Shown piece by piece: positions 21,991 to 28,979 of a DNA stretch of 38,010 nt (position 1 is its first letter; each line of letters begins with the position of its first letter). Under the pieces are notes generated by a model. The model was not told the origin of the DNA. It did no database searches and was given only the letters and a program-made list of their open reading frames with translations. The position numbers and the translations under genes were made by a program. Origin of the DNA: Thermoplasmata archaeon (GTDB lineage: Archaea; Thermoplasmatota; Thermoplasmata; Lutacidiplasmatales; UBA184); assembly GCA_021798195.1 (NCBI GenBank), contig JAJZYH010000019.1, forward strand, positions 1 to 38,010. The letters run 5' to 3'.

Positions 21991-22848
21991 ATGGCGGAGC
22001 GCGTGAGGGACTACATGGTGCTCCAGGTGGAGCATCTGCCCGAGACCGCCCGCGTCTCGGAGGCGATCCGCCAGCTCACCCGGAGCCGGCATCACGGGCT
22101 CCCGGTGACCGGCGAGGGAGGCCGGCTCCTGGGCTTCGTGAGCGCCAAGGAGCTCCTGCGGCATGCGAACCAGCCGGACCTGCACCTGCGGAACATCATC
22201 CGCCCGGGGACCTACACCGCCACCCCGGACATGTCCATGGACGATGCCGCCCGGATCATGTTCCGCTACGGCCTCCGGGATCTCCCCATCATCAACGACC
22301 GGGGGATCCTCGTGGGCATCCTGAGCAATCTCGACGTGGTCCGGAGCCACTTCGAACGCGCCACCCCCATGAAGGCGGAGACCATGAAGCGGCTCCTCAA
22401 CGACCGGTACGGGTTCACCTTCCGGCTCCGCCGGGGCCTCGTCCCCATCGAGGGCCTCAAGCCCACCCAGTGGAAGGTCTACGAGGACGAGCTCGAGGGG
22501 CGCCGGTACGAACTGGAACGCGGGTTCGCGGAACCGGTGCTGGTGATCCACAAGGGCGGGGATTGGATCCTGGTGGATGGCCACCATCGCGCCCTGGCCG
22601 CCCGGGAGATGGGACTGCGCCAGCTCCAGGCCTTCATCCTGGATTGCGATGCCCCCGCCGACTTTGCCAAGGTGGAGATCGGCCTGGAGCGCCTCGCCCG
22701 GGAGCACCACCTGAACCGCCTGGAGGACATCCAGGTGGACCGGTCCGGGCACCACCCCCTCATCGAGGTCACCACGCAGCTCATCCGGCGGTTCGAAGCG
22801 GAGGATCCCCACCACCGGCCCGCCCCCACGTCGGAGCGCAGCGACTGA
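21991..22848 (+). CDS. CBS-pair protein fused to a ParB-like domain
   Basis: At 285 residues it starts with two CBS domains (about 5-55 and 68-120), each with the G-x-x-x-x-K/R-x-hydrophobic pattern and a GILSNLDVVRS end, likely binding an adenine nucleotide. Residues 150-230 resemble a ParB/sulfiredoxin-type fold, with PVLVIHKGGDWILVDGHHRA recalling the ParB-N motif (D-G-x-x-R-x-x-A). The role is unknown; nucleotide-regulated DNA binding or a phosphotransfer activity as in some ParB-N relatives are possibilities. It lies 50 bp after gmhA on the same strand. ATG 21991 was chosen because the CBS domain begins immediately. Confidence 0.8.
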   Translation: MAERVRDYMVLQVEHLPETARVSEAIRQLTRSRHHGLPVTGEGGRLLGFVSAKELLRHANQPDLHLRNIIRPGTYTATPDMSMDDAARIMFRYGLRDLPIINDRGILVGILSNLDVVRSHFERATPMKAETMKRLLNDRYGFTFRLRRGLVPIEGLKPTQWKVYEDELEGRRYELERGFAEPVLVIHKGGDWILVDGHHRALAAREMGLRQLQAFILDCDAPADFAKVEIGLERLAREHHLNRLEDIQVDRSGHHPLIEVTTQLIRRFEAEDPHHRPAPTSERSD

Positions 22849-22874: not shown

Positions 22875-22888
22875 ACGGTACGTACCGT
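22875..22888 (+). promoter_or_regulatory. Perfect 14-bp palindrome with GTAC core
   Basis: ACGGTACGTACCGT is a perfect palindrome centred 14.5 bp upstream of the TATA-like TTATCAA box of the double-cupredoxin gene. It sits at the position of an archaeal activator site just upstream of BRE. Confidence 0.5.
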
Positions 22889-22892
22889 ACCG

Positions 22893-22899
22893 TTATCAA
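22893..22899 (+). promoter_or_regulatory. TATA-like box for the double-cupredoxin gene
   Basis: TTATCAA is centred 28 bp before ATG 22924, consistent with a leaderless transcript. Confidence 0.5.
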
Positions 22900-22923
22900 G
22901 CGACCCTTCGTCGGGATGACCTG

Positions 22924-23958
22924 ATGCAACGGAGCGCGGCAGGATCCCGGTGGCACCGTCTGGATCGCCGGAGGGTCCTCAAGGGGGGGGTTCTCCTCGT
23001 GGCCGGGATCGTCTGGCTCGCCGTCCTCCTTCCCCAGGTCCCCTCGGTCACCGCCCAGGGGGTCCGGAACGAGATCGGCTACGCCGAGCTCACCAGCGTC
23101 GTGACCCGATTCTCGGTGAACACCACGGCCCTGGGATACGCTCCGTCCTCCCTTGCGGTCCCCACGGACCGGAGCATCACCCTCACGATCCACAACCTGG
23201 ACGCCAACGCCACGCACACCTTCACGGTCTATGCGAAGGCGAACACCACCATCCCCACCAACACCACCCCGGGGGCTCTCGCCGCCCTCTTCGCCCCCGC
23301 GAACTCGAGCCTCGTGAACGTGTCCCTGGCCCCCGGTGCCTGGGCCAACTGGACCTACAACTTCTCCCAGCCCGCGTCCTACGAGTTCCTCTCCCTGGTG
23401 CCCTACCAGTTCCAGGCCGGCTTCTACGGGTTCCTCAACGCGAGCTCCGGGGCGGGGAGCGTCTACAGCCTCAACACCAGCGCCTATGACTCGCTCCGGT
23501 TCATCCCCAACACCCTCGTGGCCCCTCCCGGGGCGACGGTGGTCTTCCACGTCACGGATCGGGGGACCGTGCACACCTTCACCATCGATTCCATCAGCAA
23601 CGACACCAACCTCACCGTGGGGCAGGCCCTCCCCACCTCCGATCCCGGGCTCCAGAACCCCCTCGTGGACCTGCACCTCTCCACCACCGGGACAACCTAC
23701 ACCTCTGCCCCGGTCACCTTCCCCAAGCACGGAGTCTTCTGGTTCGTATGCACCATCCCCGGGCACTTCCAGGCGGGGATGTACGGCTTCCTCTACGTGG
23801 GGGCCACCCCGACCCCGCCCACCACCATCCCCACCCAGGTGAACGTGCTGCAGGTGGGGATCATCGCCGTGTCGGCGGTGATCCTCGGGGTGGCGGCGTT
23901 CGTGCTCCTGGCCGGCATGGGGGAGAGAGTCCGGGTCCCACCTCCCCGCCGGAGCTGA
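22924..23958 (+). CDS. Membrane-anchored double cupredoxin (one intact, one ligand-less domain)
   Basis: This 344-residue exported protein has an N-terminal RRRVLK followed by a hydrophobic stretch (15-39), close to a Tat signal. Two cupredoxin-like domains follow (about 55-172 and 185-293), then a C-terminal membrane helix (about 309-332). Domain 2 has the full type-1 copper set H217, C276, H281 and M286 in FVCTIPGHFQAGMYGF. Domain 1 keeps H98, but the aligned positions are S157, Q162 and F167 (FLSLVPYQFQAGFYGF), so it probably binds no copper. Many N-x-S/T sequons suggest surface glycosylation. It is probably an electron carrier or oxidase-associated copper protein. Confidence 0.88.
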   Translation: MQRSAAGSRWHRLDRRRVLKGGVLLVAGIVWLAVLLPQVPSVTAQGVRNEIGYAELTSVVTRFSVNTTALGYAPSSLAVPTDRSITLTIHNLDANATHTFTVYAKANTTIPTNTTPGALAALFAPANSSLVNVSLAPGAWANWTYNFSQPASYEFLSLVPYQFQAGFYGFLNASSGAGSVYSLNTSAYDSLRFIPNTLVAPPGATVVFHVTDRGTVHTFTIDSISNDTNLTVGQALPTSDPGLQNPLVDLHLSTTGTTYTSAPVTFPKHGVFWFVCTIPGHFQAGMYGFLYVGATPTPPTTIPTQVNVLQVGIIAVSAVILGVAAFVLLAGMGERVRVPPPRRS

Positions 23959-23998
23959 CGGGCCCCCTCCGCGGGGCGAGCCTCCCCCGTCCCTTCCC

Positions 23999-24448
23999 TC
24001 ACAGCCGGGCGATGAGAGGACCCACCACGAAGAGCCCCAGGAGGAGCATGGTCATCACCGTGAGGGTCACGGCCGCCATCTCCACCTCCTTCTCCTCCAC
24101 GAAATAGAGCCACCCGGTAAACACCCGGGCCACCGGGGTCCCCACCAGGAAGAGGACGCCCAGGGTGAGGAGCGCGGTGGACCGGGCCGCGGCGAGGGCC
24201 AGGCCGAACGCCACCGGATCCGTGAGGTAGTGGACCAGCGTGGCGGACTGGAAGACGTCGAGAATGCTCGACGAAGGATGGCGGGCGAAAAAGAGGACCG
24301 TCCCGAGGACGAGGAACCCCACGGCGATCACCAGCCCGATCCGCAGCACCAGGGCCATCACCTCGTAGGCGTGCAGGGGAAGATCGTGCAGGTCCGACGC
24401 TCCGGTGGGCGAGGGATCCCTTGGCCCCGGGCCCGTGGGGTCGGTCAT
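23999..24448 (-). CDS. DUF1634 membrane protein
   Basis: 149 residues with three predicted membrane helices (about 29-50, 76-96 and 122-145) and a hydrophilic N-terminus. The LRIGLVIAVGFLVLG and VFTGWLYFVEEKE segments are typical of DUF1634, a family often next to TauE/SafE exporters. Here its start overlaps the TauE/SafE stop by 4 bp, so it may be an accessory subunit. The gene converges on the double cupredoxin, 40 bp away. Confidence 0.82.
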   Translation of the reverse strand: MTDPTGPGPRDPSPTGASDLHDLPLHAYEVMALVLRIGLVIAVGFLVLGTVLFFARHPSSSILDVFQSATLVHYLTDPVAFGLALAAARSTALLTLGVLFLVGTPVARVFTGWLYFVEEKEVEMAAVTLTVMTMLLLGLFVVGPLIARL

Positions 24449-25302
24449 CCGATCCCCAGCCCCCGGAGGATGAGCTCCACGGCCAGCGCCACGAGGAGGG
24501 CCTGGAAGACGTATCGGACCACCCGGTTGCTGAGGCCGGGCAGGATGCGGCTCCCCAGGAAGGAACCCATGGTGGTCCCCAGCGCCACGGGGGCCGCGAT
24601 CACCGGCTGCACGTAGCCCGCCGCGAGGAGGACGGAGGCACCGGCGGCCGCCGTGACGCCGATCATGAAGTTGCTGGTGGCCGTGGAGACCTTCATGGGG
24701 AGGCGCAGCGCCCGGTCCAGGGCGAGGACCTTGAGCACGCCGCTTCCGATCCCGAACATGCCCGCCACGAGGCCCGCGCCGAACATGACCTGCAGGGCCC
24801 GGTTCGTGTTGGCCGCCCGGTAGGTCACCGGGCGGCCCAGCTTCCGGTCGAAGTAGGTGCCTCCCAGGTGGAGCTTCCGGGAACGCGCGTCGGGGACGAC
24901 CCCCGTGGGGATGTCCTCCTTGTGGATCATCCCGCTGGGGAGGGTGGAGAGGAGCACCGCCCCCAGGAGGATGAGGAGGATGGGGACCAGGTCGGCCTTC
25001 GCGAGGACGATGGTGATGGCCGCGCCCACGAGCGCCCCCGGGACGGTGGCGATCTCGAGGAACATCCCGATGCGGATGTCGGTGAGATGGTCGTGCACGT
25101 AGGCCGCTCCGGCGGTGGTGGACGTGGCGAGCACGCTGATGGCGCTCGCTCCCACCGCCAGGATGAAGGGGACGTGGAAGGCGATCACCATCACGGGGAC
25201 CAGGATCACGCCTCCCCCCAGTCCCGCGAGCGATCCCAGGAATCCCGCCCCGATGGCGAAGAGGAGGAGGAGCAGGACGAAGGTGAGCAGTTGGAGCGCC
25301 AC
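24445..25302 (-). CDS. TauE/SafE-family (sulfite/organic anion) exporter
   Basis: This 285-residue protein has about eight membrane helices in two homologous halves. The Gly-rich GSLAGLGGGVILVP near the N-terminus and the matching GMFGIGSGVLKVLAL in the second half are the duplicated family signature, along with MKVSTATSNFMIGVTA. Members move sulfite, sulfoacetate or related anions; the substrate here cannot be told. A hydrophilic loop of about 45 residues separates the halves. It starts with GTG 25302 and overlaps DUF1634 by 4 bp. CoxII ends 76 bp upstream on the same strand. Confidence 0.87.
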   Translation of the reverse strand: MALQLLTFVLLLLLFAIGAGFLGSLAGLGGGVILVPVMVIAFHVPFILAVGASAISVLATSTTAGAAYVHDHLTDIRIGMFLEIATVPGALVGAAITIVLAKADLVPILLILLGAVLLSTLPSGMIHKEDIPTGVVPDARSRKLHLGGTYFDRKLGRPVTYRAANTNRALQVMFGAGLVAGMFGIGSGVLKVLALDRALRLPMKVSTATSNFMIGVTAAAGASVLLAAGYVQPVIAAPVALGTTMGSFLGSRILPGLSNRVVRYVFQALLVALAVELILRGLGIG

Positions 25303-25378
25303 GGGGGCGGCTCAACCCCCGGAGGTACTTGGCTTCGACGTCCCCAATACGCCGGCCGGGGCCGGATCCGCCCGCATC

Positions 25379-26035
25379 TCACGTGGGGCGCCAGACCGCC
25401 ACCGCCGGTGCGAACGCAACCCCGGAGGTGGTGAAGCTGGGGAGCCACGGGGCATCGGCGGTGACGATGAGCGTCGCCCGCATGTACGCGTGGCCGGCAC
25501 CGCAGAACTCGGTGCACTGGATGAGGTAGGTGGTCCCGTTGGTGGCTCCGGCGGGGATGCTGAACCAGTAGTGGTTGATGCGGCCCGGGATCGCGTCGAT
25601 GCGCACGCCCAGCGCGGGGATGTTCAGGCTGTGCACCACGTCGGCGCTGGTGACGTTCATCTCCACCACCCCGTTCGAGGGGACGTAGAGCACCCCCTGG
25701 GTCTGATTGGACAAGGAACTGTTCCCCATGCAGTCGTGGACGCTGGGGTTCGCGAGGCACGCACCATACGGATCGTTGTAGAAGAACACCCAGTACCACT
25801 GGTGTCCCACCACGGTGATGTGGACGTTCGCCTGATAGCCGGCGGGAGGGCCGGAGTCCAGGGAATAGAGGATGTTGGTGGAGAGGACCGCCACCGCGAT
25901 GAGCATGATGGCCGGGATGATGGTCCAGGACCACTCCAGGTTCTTCCAGCGGCGATGGTTGTAGTTCGGGGGGTAGCGCTTCCGCCAGTCCCGATCCGCC
26001 TTCAATGCGTCCGCCTTGGAAGAGGATCCCGTCAT
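25379..26035 (-). CDS. coxB: Cytochrome c oxidase subunit II, CuA domain (lacks TM1)
   Basis: This 218-residue subunit accepts electrons at the binuclear CuA centre. All ligands are present: H135, then C174, E176, C178, H182 and M185 in QCTEFCGAGHAYM. Only one membrane helix is seen (about 34-57, LEWSWTIIPAIMLIAVAVLS), and that sequence corresponds to the second helix of normal CoxII. The first helix is missing and is probably supplied by the 86-residue protein encoded 6 bp upstream. A Cys pair (C93, C102) sits in an insertion before the His ligand. The catalytic subunit I gene is about 8 kb away on the other strand. Confidence 0.92.
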   Translation of the reverse strand: MTGSSSKADALKADRDWRKRYPPNYNHRRWKNLEWSWTIIPAIMLIAVAVLSTNILYSLDSGPPAGYQANVHITVVGHQWYWVFFYNDPYGACLANPSVHDCMGNSSLSNQTQGVLYVPSNGVVEMNVTSADVVHSLNIPALGVRIDAIPGRINHYWFSIPAGATNGTTYLIQCTEFCGAGHAYMRATLIVTADAPWLPSFTTSGVAFAPAVAVWRPT

Positions 26036-26041
26036 CCCGGC

Positions 26042-26302
26042 TCACTCCTTGGGAGGGGAGGAACCCCCTTCGGTCTCCAGGTCGAAGCTCGCCGCGTACG
26101 GTTCCCGGGCCCGGCCCTTCATGAGCGCCCGGAGCAGGAGGAGGACGTAGAAGACCCCCACGGCAAAGGCCAGGAGGAACACGATCCAGTAGAGGCCGCA
26201 GGTCTCGTCGAACGGCGTCGGGACGTATCCGGGAGAGGGGCAGACGTTCAGGGAGAACCCCGCGAGTGAGGGAAGAGGCACCGGGGCCCAATAGCCACCC
26301 AT
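26042..26302 (-). CDS. Single-helix membrane protein, probable CoxII TM1 fragment
   Basis: 86 residues: an N-terminal outside segment with two Cys (C21, C35) and the PTPFDET stretch, one membrane helix (about 37-60, LYWIVFLLAFAVGVFYVLLL), then a charged tail. Hydropathy and position (6 bp before the CuA gene) match the missing first helix of subunit II, so CoxII looks split in two. That is inference from topology; the sequence alone is not diagnostic. ATG 26302 lies 27-28 bp after a TATA-like box, so the mRNA is probably leaderless. A GTAC palindrome lies directly upstream. Confidence 0.72.
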   Translation of the reverse strand: MGGYWAPVPLPSLAGFSLNVCPSPGYVPTPFDETCGLYWIVFLLAFAVGVFYVLLLLRALMKGRAREPYAASFDLETEGGSSPPKE

Positions 26303-26325
26303 GCGAGGAACCCACCGGGGGGCGG

Positions 26326-26333
26326 TTCTTATC
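26326..26333 (-). promoter_or_regulatory. TATA-like box for the oxidase subunit II operon
   Basis: GATAAGAA on the minus strand is centred about 27.5 bp before ATG 26302, the leaderless distance. Confidence 0.5.
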
Positions 26334-26337
26334 TGCA

Positions 26338-26349
26338 CCGTACGTACGG
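26338..26349 (-). promoter_or_regulatory. Perfect 12-bp palindrome with GTAC core
   Basis: CCGTACGTACGG is centred 14 bp upstream of the TATA-like box of the subunit II operon, nearly the same spacing as at 22875-22888. Confidence 0.5.
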
Positions 26350-26480
26350 CGAGAGGGCCCTCCGCGCACCCCGGGCATCTCCCTGGGATCCGGCCGGTGG
26401 CGTAGTCGTTCCTCCTCCTTCCCCCTCTGGTGCGCTCCCTTCCGGCCCGATGGCGGAGCCACCGCCTTCGCCCGAGGTTC

Positions 26481-26484
26481 GTAC
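26481..26484 (+). promoter_or_regulatory. GTAC half-site upstream of the second cupredoxin
   Basis: TTCGTAC before the CAATAAGAA box is centred 13.5 bp upstream of it, matching the spacing at the other two respiratory promoters. It is not a long palindrome, so it is weaker. Confidence 0.3.
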
Positions 26485-26491
26485 ACAATGC

Positions 26492-26500
26492 CAATAAGAA
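26492..26500 (+). promoter_or_regulatory. TATA-like box for the second cupredoxin
   Basis: CAATAAGAA is centred 28 bp before ATG 26524 and decides that start over ATG 26488, which lies inside or before the box. Confidence 0.5.
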
Positions 26501-26523
26501 CCTGCATGGTCGGCGGGCCATTT

Positions 26524-27324
26524 ATGGCGCGGACGTCGGGGGCCCATGGGAGGATCTTCCATTCCGGATTGGTGGCGGGGGTCGTGCTCGTCTTCCTCGT
26601 GGCGATGACGACCTATTCGCTGGCGGCGGCGCGGGCCACCCCATCCCCCGTTTCCCATGGTCAGGACTCCCTCCTCTACAACAATACCACAGTGGTGAAC
26701 CTGGCGGGGACCGACCAGTTCGCCTGGGTGCCCAGCGTCCTCTCGGCGCAATCCCTCCACGTGGAGTTCGTGGTGACCAACGCCGGCACCATCTCCCACA
26801 CCTTCACCCTCTCGGACCGGGTGAATGCCACGGCGCCTCCCAACGCGACCAGCTCCACCGCCCCGGGGCAGTGGTTCGAGACGAGCCACCTGTACGTCAA
26901 CGTGCCGCTCAACGCGTCCACCTCGGCAGGGCCCACGGTCCTCCACGTCTTCGTGAACTTCACGGCCATCGGCTTCTACCAGTTCATCTGCATCCCCCAC
27001 TACGCCCTGGGGATGAAGGGGATCATCTACGTGGGGGTCCCCGTCCCCTCCACCACCGCCCCCGTGGCCCCTCCCATCGAGGGGTTCTGGGTCATCGTGA
27101 TCGTCATCGCGGCATTGGCCTCTCTCACCGTGATCCTGGGCTTCGTGGTGGGGAAGCGCAGCGCTCCCCACGCCGGCCGGACCCACGACAAGACCCCGGA
27201 GACCGCCATCACGAGCACCGTGGAATACTACAACGATTCGCGCCCCACCCCCATGGAATCTCCGGACGCGCCGCAATCCGGCGGATCGGACGGGGAGACC
27301 GCTTCCCCTCCCCGTACGCCGTGA
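26524..27324 (+). CDS. Membrane-anchored cupredoxin (blue copper protein)
   Basis: 266 residues: N-terminal signal/anchor (about 15-36), a cupredoxin domain with copper ligands H92 (ISHTFTLS), C156, H159 and M164 (FICIPHYALGMKG), a C-terminal membrane helix (about 186-210) and a hydrophilic tail of about 55 residues. The C-x-x-H spacing is shorter than in the double cupredoxin (C-x4-H). Several N-x-S/T sequons suggest glycosylation. It diverges from the subunit II operon, so a role as electron carrier to CuA, or in copper delivery, is likely. I chose ATG 26524 from the leaderless promoter; ATG 26488 and 26506 are in frame upstream. Confidence 0.88.
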   Translation: MARTSGAHGRIFHSGLVAGVVLVFLVAMTTYSLAAARATPSPVSHGQDSLLYNNTTVVNLAGTDQFAWVPSVLSAQSLHVEFVVTNAGTISHTFTLSDRVNATAPPNATSSTAPGQWFETSHLYVNVPLNASTSAGPTVLHVFVNFTAIGFYQFICIPHYALGMKGIIYVGVPVPSTTAPVAPPIEGFWVIVIVIAALASLTVILGFVVGKRSAPHAGRTHDKTPETAITSTVEYYNDSRPTPMESPDAPQSGGSDGETASPPRTP

Positions 27325-27435: not shown

Positions 27436-27457
27436 GTCCATACCAGTACGTATGGAC
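27436..27457 (+). repeat. Inverted repeat, 8-bp arms, GTAC-containing
   Basis: Arms GTCCATAC and GTATGGAC are perfect complements separated by CAGTAC. It is a possible operator or 3' signal between the cupredoxin and the PhoU-like gene. Confidence 0.4.
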
Positions 27458-27608: not shown

Positions 27609-28658
27609 ATGGCGTGGGGAGGGGGACCGGCTCGGGAGCGGCGCGTCCTGAAGGCAGGGCATTCATCCATCGCGGTGACCCTTCCCAAACCGTGGGCGGA
27701 GGCGATGCACCTGCGCCCGGGGGACGTGGTGGTATTCGACCAGAACGACGACGGGACCCTTTACCTCAAGCCCTCCCCGGGGGGGAACCACCCCCACGTG
27801 GTCCCCCCCTTCGCGGTGCATGCTGCCATGTTCCAGGAGCCGGGCCAGTTGGAACGGCTCGTGGCCGGGGCCTACCGCGCAGGGCACGACTCCATCGAGA
27901 TCCATTCCGATGAGCCGCTCAATACCGAACGGCTGGAGGAGGTCCAGGGGGTGGCCCGGCGCCTCTTGGGGTTGAGCGTCGTGGCGCAGGAGCCGTACCG
28001 GGTGGTCCTGCAGAGCTTCATCGATCCCTCGAAGTACGCGCTGCCGCAGCTGGTCCAGCGCATGAAGATGATCCTGGTGGCGCTGGTGGAGGAATCCGAG
28101 AGGAGCCTCGAACGGACGGGGAGCGCACGGACCCTCCGCCATACTTCCCTCGCCGAGGAGACGGAGAAGGTGCACGCCCTCCTGGTCCGGCAACTCCTCC
28201 TGGCGAGCCGGGACTGGTCCCTCGCGAAGCAGATCGGGAGCCCCGACCCGCGGCAGCTCTTGGTCTGGCGCGTGGTGGTCCAATCCCTGGAGGAGGTGGG
28301 CCACCTCCTGGAGGACCTTTCCCGTTCCCTCCAGGACCACCCATCCGAGGCCCGGGGGATCGGGTTCCTCCAGGCGCTCCGGGATTTCAAGCAGGTCCTG
28401 CAGGACGTGGTGGAGGCCCTGGTCCACCCCAGCCTCCCCAAGGCCTGCGCCGCCTACGACGCCGCGGCCGACCTGGGGAGCCGCGTGGAAGCGCTCCCGT
28501 TCCCGTCGCGGCGGGCCGGCCGCCGCAATGCCCCGCCCCGGCTCCCGCCCCAGGGAACCCTTCGCCGCGCCTCCGAGAAGCTCCGGACCCTCGCGGAGGT
28601 CGCGGTGGATCGCGCCGTGGCGGGGACGGCCCCCCTCACGGCCGAACCCCGCCCCTAG
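27609..28658 (+). CDS. AbrB-like / PhoU-like regulatory protein
   Basis: 349 residues. The N-terminal 50 form a SpoVT/AbrB-type DNA-binding domain (VLKAGHSSIAVTLPKPWAE, then LRPGDVVVF). Residues 90-310 are almost all helical and resemble PhoU in archaeal AbrB-PhoU proteins annotated as phosphate uptake regulators. The Pro/Arg-rich tail is disordered. No phosphate transporter is nearby; instead the gene sits between a cupredoxin and the Tat/respiratory operon, so it might control those genes. GGAGG and GGGGGAG sites precede ATG 27609. Confidence 0.82.
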   Translation: MAWGGGPARERRVLKAGHSSIAVTLPKPWAEAMHLRPGDVVVFDQNDDGTLYLKPSPGGNHPHVVPPFAVHAAMFQEPGQLERLVAGAYRAGHDSIEIHSDEPLNTERLEEVQGVARRLLGLSVVAQEPYRVVLQSFIDPSKYALPQLVQRMKMILVALVEESERSLERTGSARTLRHTSLAEETEKVHALLVRQLLLASRDWSLAKQIGSPDPRQLLVWRVVVQSLEEVGHLLEDLSRSLQDHPSEARGIGFLQALRDFKQVLQDVVEALVHPSLPKACAAYDAAADLGSRVEALPFPSRRAGRRNAPPRLPPQGTLRRASEKLRTLAEVAVDRAVAGTAPLTAEPRP

Positions 28659-28689
28659 AGCGGCGGGAAGCCCCCTTTTAAGGGCGGAA

Positions 28690-28704
28690 TACGAACAGTT
28701 CGTA
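28690..28704 (+). promoter_or_regulatory. 15-bp palindrome upstream of tatA
   Basis: TACGAACAGTTCGTA is perfect around the central A. It lies between the AbrB-PhoU gene and the Tat/respiratory operon, flanked by AT boxes CTTTTAAG (28675-28682) and CATAAGG (28731-28737). It is a candidate operator for the whole operon. Confidence 0.5.
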
Positions 28705-28730
28705 CGGACTCCTACCTCTTGTACGAGACC

Positions 28731-28737
28731 CATAAGG
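28731..28737 (+). promoter_or_regulatory. TATA-like box for the Tat/respiratory operon
   Basis: CATAAGG lies about 42 bp before ATG 28776. The alternative CTTTTAAG at 28675-28682 would place the start site at the palindrome. Which one is used cannot be told. Confidence 0.3.
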
Positions 28738-28775: not shown

Positions 28776-28979
28776 ATGTTCGATAGCATCGACGATTGGA
28801 TCATCTTGGCCGTGGCCTTCGGCATCCTCTTCTGGGGGTCCGCGAAGATCCCCCAGCTGGCCCACAGCTTCGGACGGGCCGTGGGAGAGTTCAAGAAGGG
28901 CCGCATGGAATCCGAACGGGAGCTTGCGCAGGACCAGAACACGCCCCGCGTCGTTCGGGAACCCGGACTGATCCGCTGA
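28776..28979 (+). CDS. tatA: Sec-independent translocase protein TatA
   Basis: 67 residues with the canonical TatA layout: a short N-terminal membrane helix (about 6-22), then FWGSAKIPQLAHSFGRAVGEF, the hinge and amphipathic helix, then a charged tail. TatA forms the pore or membrane-weakening assembly for export of folded proteins. Starting at ATG 28776 gives the usual short N-terminus; an upstream TTG at 28719 would add 19 residues. The next gene's ATG directly abuts its stop. It is the first of ten closely packed respiratory and Tat genes. Confidence 0.9.
   Translation: MFDSIDDWIILAVAFGILFWGSAKIPQLAHSFGRAVGEFKKGRMESERELAQDQNTPRVVREPGLIR

Follow-up and report, generated by a model that had tools for sequence, protein, structure and literature searches.

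A GTAC element seven bases upstream of the TATA box at four respiratory promoters of a Thermoplasmata archaeon, and an AbrB-domain protein as its candidate regulator

The window analysed here is a 38,010-nucleotide stretch of contig JAJZYH010000019.1 (assembly GCA_021798195.1) from a Thermoplasmata archaeon of UBA184/Lutacidiplasmatales, uncultured archaea of acid soils that are represented here by metagenome assemblies. It carries a complex III/IV gene cluster in which four promoters share one element: GTAC, then exactly 7 bp, then a TATA box (GTAC-N7-TATA). All of the evidence is comparative, and TATA boxes were assigned by sequence. The cluster includes a double cupredoxin of 344 amino acids (22924..23958, plus strand; PF13473 and PF00127 over cut-off), whose orthologues in relatives also carry the site. 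On the minus strand lies an operon for cytochrome c oxidase subunit II (COX2), the first gene of which encodes a small membrane protein of 86 amino acids (26042..26302) with its ATG 30 bp from the TATA box; this product is 38-41% identical to the first-gene products of relatives, in which its place before COX2 is conserved. COX2 itself (25379..26035, minus strand) has the CuA motif CTEFCGAGHAYM and matches PF00116 (E 4.6e-22) and, below the cut-off of that model, TIGR02866 (E 1.6e-37). A second cupredoxin follows (26506..27324, plus strand; PF00127, E 5.1e-5), the start of which may be the ATG at 26524, which would give a nearly leaderless transcript. Between it and tatA is the gene for an AbrB/MazE-domain protein with a C-terminal helical part (27609..28658, plus strand; PF04014, E 1.5e-10). 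TatA (28776..28979, plus strand; PF02416, E 4.6e-7) is encoded by the first gene of a tatA-tatC-Rieske-cytochrome b run in which TatC, Rieske and cytochrome b were likewise identified, and coxA (COX1, E 2.8e-146), ctaA and UbiA-type genes lie downstream of the run. Passages of a published account of the Lutacidiplasmatales (PMC9287336) place complex IV genes in a similar setting, beside genes for complex III, haem A/O, Tat, cupredoxin and unknown proteins.

The original prediction had named three of these promoters, and proposed that GTAC-centred sites at a fixed distance from the TATA box pointed to a common regulator, perhaps sensing copper, oxygen or redox state. The perfect palindromes at 22875-22888 (ACGGTACGTACCGT, double cupredoxin) and 26338-26349 (CCGTACGTACGG, COX2 operon) and the TTCGTAC at 26478-26484 (second cupredoxin) are all present. 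Each palindrome has its dyad at the CG step where two GTAC copies join, and is thus ACGT-centred. Shuffles predict 0.03 copies of GTACGTAC for the window, which has two; the 1.75-Mb genome has only five. What is conserved of each palindrome is the GTAC nearer the TATA box, with N7 and then TTATCAA or ATAAGAA after it. At the double cupredoxin (22879..22899, plus strand) it consists of TACGTAC with GTAC at 22882-22885, N7 and TTATCAA at 22893-22899, and at the COX2 operon (26326..26346, minus strand) of TACGTAC with GTAC at 26343-26340, N7 and ATAAGAA at 26332-26326. At the second cupredoxin (26478..26500, plus strand; TTCGTAC with GTAC at 26481-26484) the N7 register lands on CAATAAG (26492), with ATAAGAA at 9 bp, and this CAATAAG register is that of CTTTGAA in relatives. 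The fourth site, which had been missed, is at the tatA promoter (28721..28736, plus strand), where GTACGAG (GTAC 28721-28724) is followed by N7 and the TATA box ATAAG at 28732, 44 bp 5' of the tatA ATG at 28776; this promoter heads in the tatA-tatC-Rieske-cytochrome b-coxA direction.

Pattern searches for GTAC motifs covered the whole 1.75-Mb genome of the window. The pattern CGTACN{0,30}WTAWNWA gave eight matches, four of which, at three promoters, are the sites of the original prediction. Similarly, GTAC-N7-WTAW matched eight times, against 26 for the reversed control pattern, and three of the eight lie in the respiratory cluster (22882, 26343 on the minus strand, and 28721). Inspection of the other five found no credible respiratory promoter; they look intragenic or antisense, and most are inside open frames. 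One of these, at C70:34450, is antisense beside an apparent thiamine-type leader and binding-protein gene, and was taken as chance. The element is thus nearly restricted to the respiratory cluster, and with only eight sites genome-wide we rejected the idea that it is a general promoter element. Separately, a sequence resembling a thiamine-pyrophosphate leader by eye was seen 5' of a binding-protein gene at L043 1350-1530.

Conservation was examined in 61 genomes of the family, mostly metagenome-assembled genomes (MAGs); nearly all relatives in named collections carry titles of Thermoplasmata MAGs, among them UBA184 and Candidatus Lutacidiplasma silvani. Genus g4 supplies many of these genomes, and so the family counts are not independent. 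Gaps between CGTAC and a TATA-like sequence peak at 7, with 20 matches compared with 3.6 per other gap among the matches listed outside genus g3, and with the gap fixed at 7 there were 89 sites in 49 genomes compared with 21 control-pattern sites. Most of the sites with an identified downstream gene are 5' of the double cupredoxin or of the small first gene of the COX2 operon, and the enrichment by position and for respiratory genes on which the original prediction would stand or fall was therefore found. For comparison promoter by promoter, we collected regions upstream of orthologous start codons, and as some genomes were present twice, duplicates of a region were removed, so that each gene was represented by 68-77 distinct promoters. 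A gap of 7 was found at 53/77 distinct promoters of the double cupredoxin, 49/68 of the COX2 operon, 51/75 of the second cupredoxin (with the TATA-like CTTTGAA) and 60/77 of tatA, and most other gaps were rare or absent at all four. The loose box pattern used at the second cupredoxin probably accounts for the secondary counts there at gaps 8, 11 and 12, and downstream overlap probably for that at gap 11 at the COX2 operon.

The consensus sequences of these promoters define what is conserved. They read GATTC-GTAC-N7-ATATCAA (GATTCGTAC-N7-ATATCAA) at the double cupredoxin (53 distinct promoters), GTTC-GTAC-N7-ATATGTA (GTTCGTAC-N7-ATATGTA) at the COX2 operon (49), GTaC-GTAC-N7-cTTTGAA at the second cupredoxin (51) and GTAC-GAACGCC-ATATC (GTACGAACGCC-ATATC) at tatA (56 distinct sites). 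Information is concentrated on the TATA box and on a core that is TTCGTAC or its mirror GTACGAA. The palindrome is accordingly rejected as the conserved feature, TACGTAC being a local variant; of the proposal of shared GTAC sites at a fixed place, the place stands, now as an exact N7 spacing at four promoters, and the palindrome and its centre do not. The bases between GTAC and TATA are not common to the four classes (GCGGGGA, GGAGGGG, GAACGCC and AnnACnC), and the positions of the transcription factor B (TFB) recognition element (BRE) are often G/C-rich and differ between promoter classes. The double-cupredoxin and COX2 consensus sequences correspond to the left half of the palindrome TTCGTACGAA and the tatA consensus to its right half, and such half copies at different promoters are consistent with a dimer that uses partial sites. 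Extra GTAC sites are found at -19 and -32 of tatA (28 distinct upstream regions each). The window fits this pattern, with GTAC at 28702, ATAC at 28689, and an inverted repeat TACGAA-CAG-TTCGTA (28690..28704, plus strand) 19 and 32 bp upstream of the N7 GTAC. A TATA-like TTTTAAG also lies directly 5' of this repeat (28676-28705), and relatives have TTTATC in a comparable position; conceivably, the TATA-like sequence marks a second tatA promoter that the repeat could block.

Most of the 61 family genomes have an orthologue of the AbrB-domain gene (E<1e-90), usually next to the sites on one contig. Of 106 genomes of the order, the 78 that match the protein at E<1e-50 all belong to the family of the window. 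The four genomes of genus g2 retain the order dcup, cox2, small, cup2, tatA, tatC, Rieske, cytochrome b and have no AbrB gene between cup2 and tatA; in these same genomes, all four promoters are without GTAC seven bases before the TATA box. The cytochrome b tree joins g2 with g1 and g7 at 100/100 and with the window at 88/89, and genera that bear both motif and gene are on both sides of the tree. As g2 falls within the motif-bearing genera, the most parsimonious account is a joint loss, and gene and sites probably disappeared together. The lack of both the sites and the AbrB gene in g2 strongly implies a common regulator, as originally proposed. Three further genomes (G056, G065 and G068) are without COX2, without an AbrB orthologue and without an N7 site at any respiratory gene. 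Another (G011) also has no AbrB orthologue; its contig stops at the second cupredoxin, and so this gap is not evidence of loss.

The AbrB/MazE domain occupies residues 17-56, and scores 41.3 bits with PF04014, above the curated cut-off of 24.7, and 26.0 with TIGR01439, below the cut-off of 28.3. This N-terminal domain is nearly invariant across genera. The C-terminal part is long and conserved, predicted to be alpha/beta plus helices, and has no Pfam match. A PhoU label for the protein was considered and rejected, with no PhoU match in Pfam or NCBIfam and no convincing fold match in the Protein Data Bank. Two histidines (H18 and H93) and one cysteine (C280) are invariant in the alignment, and they form no recognisable copper site; nor was anything found here in support of copper, oxygen or redox state as the signal.

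On balance, GTAC-N7-TATA is probably the site through which one regulator controls the whole complex III/IV cluster, and the AbrB-domain protein, acting as an activator, is the likeliest such regulator. One sequence-specific regulator would bind the GTAC-N7-TATA promoters, and its regulon would comprise the two cupredoxins, COX2, the Tat translocase and Rieske/cytochrome b, and probably the downstream oxidase genes. We infer that the binder is the AbrB protein (27609-28658) and that the outcome is activation: as a dimer it would bind half or full copies of TTCGTACGAA, and its contact with DNA at 8-11 bp 5' of the TATA box, just beyond the BRE, would help the TATA-binding protein (TBP) or TFB to assemble. 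The usual place of archaeal activators is upstream of the BRE, from where they recruit TBP or TFB (PMC5937170, PMC5512572), while repressors usually overlap or follow the core promoter (PMC5937170, PMC5817253). The element is just such a short site at a fixed place just outside the BRE/TATA, common to linked promoters, and a distance held rigid at four promoters is in keeping with contact to the initiation complex, favouring activation. Chances are about even for the wider proposal that this AbrB-fold protein is the dedicated, cluster-encoded activator of the entire aerobic respiratory chain, and that g2 abandoned this control, losing regulator and four sites together.

Several observations weigh against this interpretation, and some of them lend themselves to other explanations. 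The monomer model of the AbrB domain has the beta-beta-helix-beta-beta order at low confidence (pLDDT <50), and no clear N7 site was seen 5' of the AbrB gene itself. Genus g2 is one clade, so that the joint loss is one event rather than four independent ones, and the simultaneous loss in g2 of an unlinked factor would look alike. That a different, unlinked transcription factor binds the element, with the AbrB protein a mere neighbour co-lost in g2, is unlikely: linked genes can share a common fate and our survey did not take in other regulators of these genomes, yet g2 retained the rest of the cluster, with the AbrB gene alone missing between cup2 and tatA, and that gene encodes a DNA-binding-type domain that is nearly invariant across genera. 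A repressor with a footprint reaching the BRE would leave the same sequence pattern as an activator. The AbrB protein might thus hinder TFB at the adjacent BRE until relieved by oxygen, copper or redox state, as a dimer on a site about 8-11 bp from the TATA box could cover the BRE, and the extra tatA-promoter sites could form a repression complex. We regard such repression as slightly less likely still than an unlinked factor, given the usual placement of archaeal repressors and activators noted above and a base-exact spacing at four promoters that suggests contact with the initiation complex.

The rigid spacing to TATA also speaks for the element as the extended recognition site of one TFB paralogue serving as an alternative general factor, as does the number of TFB genes in the host genome, about five (10 TFIIB repeats, located in five places: C61, C60, C72, C30 and C73). 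Such a paralogue is nevertheless very improbable, as the site is upstream of the BRE, essentially one genome cluster uses it, and the BRE positions between GTAC and TATA differ among the four promoter classes, with no common sequence within six bases upstream of TATA. Chance similarity of the three palindromes might have been suspected of a short motif selected post hoc, and is refuted by family-wide conservation of the exact gap at four promoters to the point of being negligible. As a side observation, several relatives carry three to five TFB genes, and are rich in general transcription factors.

Activation by the AbrB-domain protein would resemble, and differ from, several described systems. 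The CopR motif of Pyrococcus furiosus is semi-palindromic, lies directly upstream of the BRE at most regulated promoters and has copper-related targets (PMC7830388). Its sequence is TTNNCAWWWTGNNAA, in contrast to TTCGTAC/GTACGAA here, and CopR carries a TRASH domain (as in the CopR-delta-TRASH construct; PMC7830388), whereas in the candidate only PF04014 was found and no TRASH domain. The targets of CopR serve copper homeostasis, while those here are electron carriers and the oxidase. Ptr2, EarA and TFB-RF1 are presumably of protein families other than that of the AbrB-type candidate. These euryarchaeal activators likewise recruit TBP or TFB from a site just upstream of the BRE (PMC5512572, PMC5937170), and differ in recognising other DNA sequences, while the candidate here has an AbrB-type domain. 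The UV hexanucleotide A(N)TTTC of Sulfolobus acidocaldarius is likewise short and upstream of the BRE; it is non-palindromic, located at -39 to -44 from the start site upstream of 214 genes, and its factor is unknown (PMC5817253), in contrast to the one gene cluster with a candidate factor at hand here. With the AbrB/MazE (SpoVT-AbrB) family the candidate shares the PF04014 domain (E 1.5e-10), and it differs in the fusion to a long conserved C-terminal part and in its proposed target, a respiratory regulon.

The published complex IV cluster of the Lutacidiplasmatales (PMC9287336) concerns the same organism group; that source gave no match to the term 'transcription factor', and the passages of it found do not discuss promoters or regulation. 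Literature searches on archaeal AbrB with PhoU and on archaeal terminal-oxidase and cupredoxin promoters found no prior description of the element, and little on archaeal control of aerobic respiration genes. Sequence alone has here delineated a small and clean regulon, placed its element to the base, pointed to a named protein as candidate and supplied a case of loss in nature, and the matching of regulator to site can be tested in vitro without culture. If the proposal is true, the AbrB fold would be added to those by which archaeal proteins are believed to act immediately 5' of the BRE.

Some further features of the locus may be noted. An interrupted palindrome, GTCCATAC-CAGTAC-GTATGGAC, lies 5' of the AbrB-domain gene at 27436-27457, and is a possible autoregulatory site. 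A CBS-domain protein is encoded 5' of the double cupredoxin (21991-22848, plus strand), and a similar coding sequence also comes before the double cupredoxin in some relatives including g2, which is without the motif, so that the presence of this gene is not tied to that of the element. In the window, COX2 and the double cupredoxin are separated by genes for a TauE-type exporter and a DUF1634 protein (24002-25302), both on the minus strand like COX2; in the relatives examined, COX2 and the double cupredoxin lie nearer to each other.

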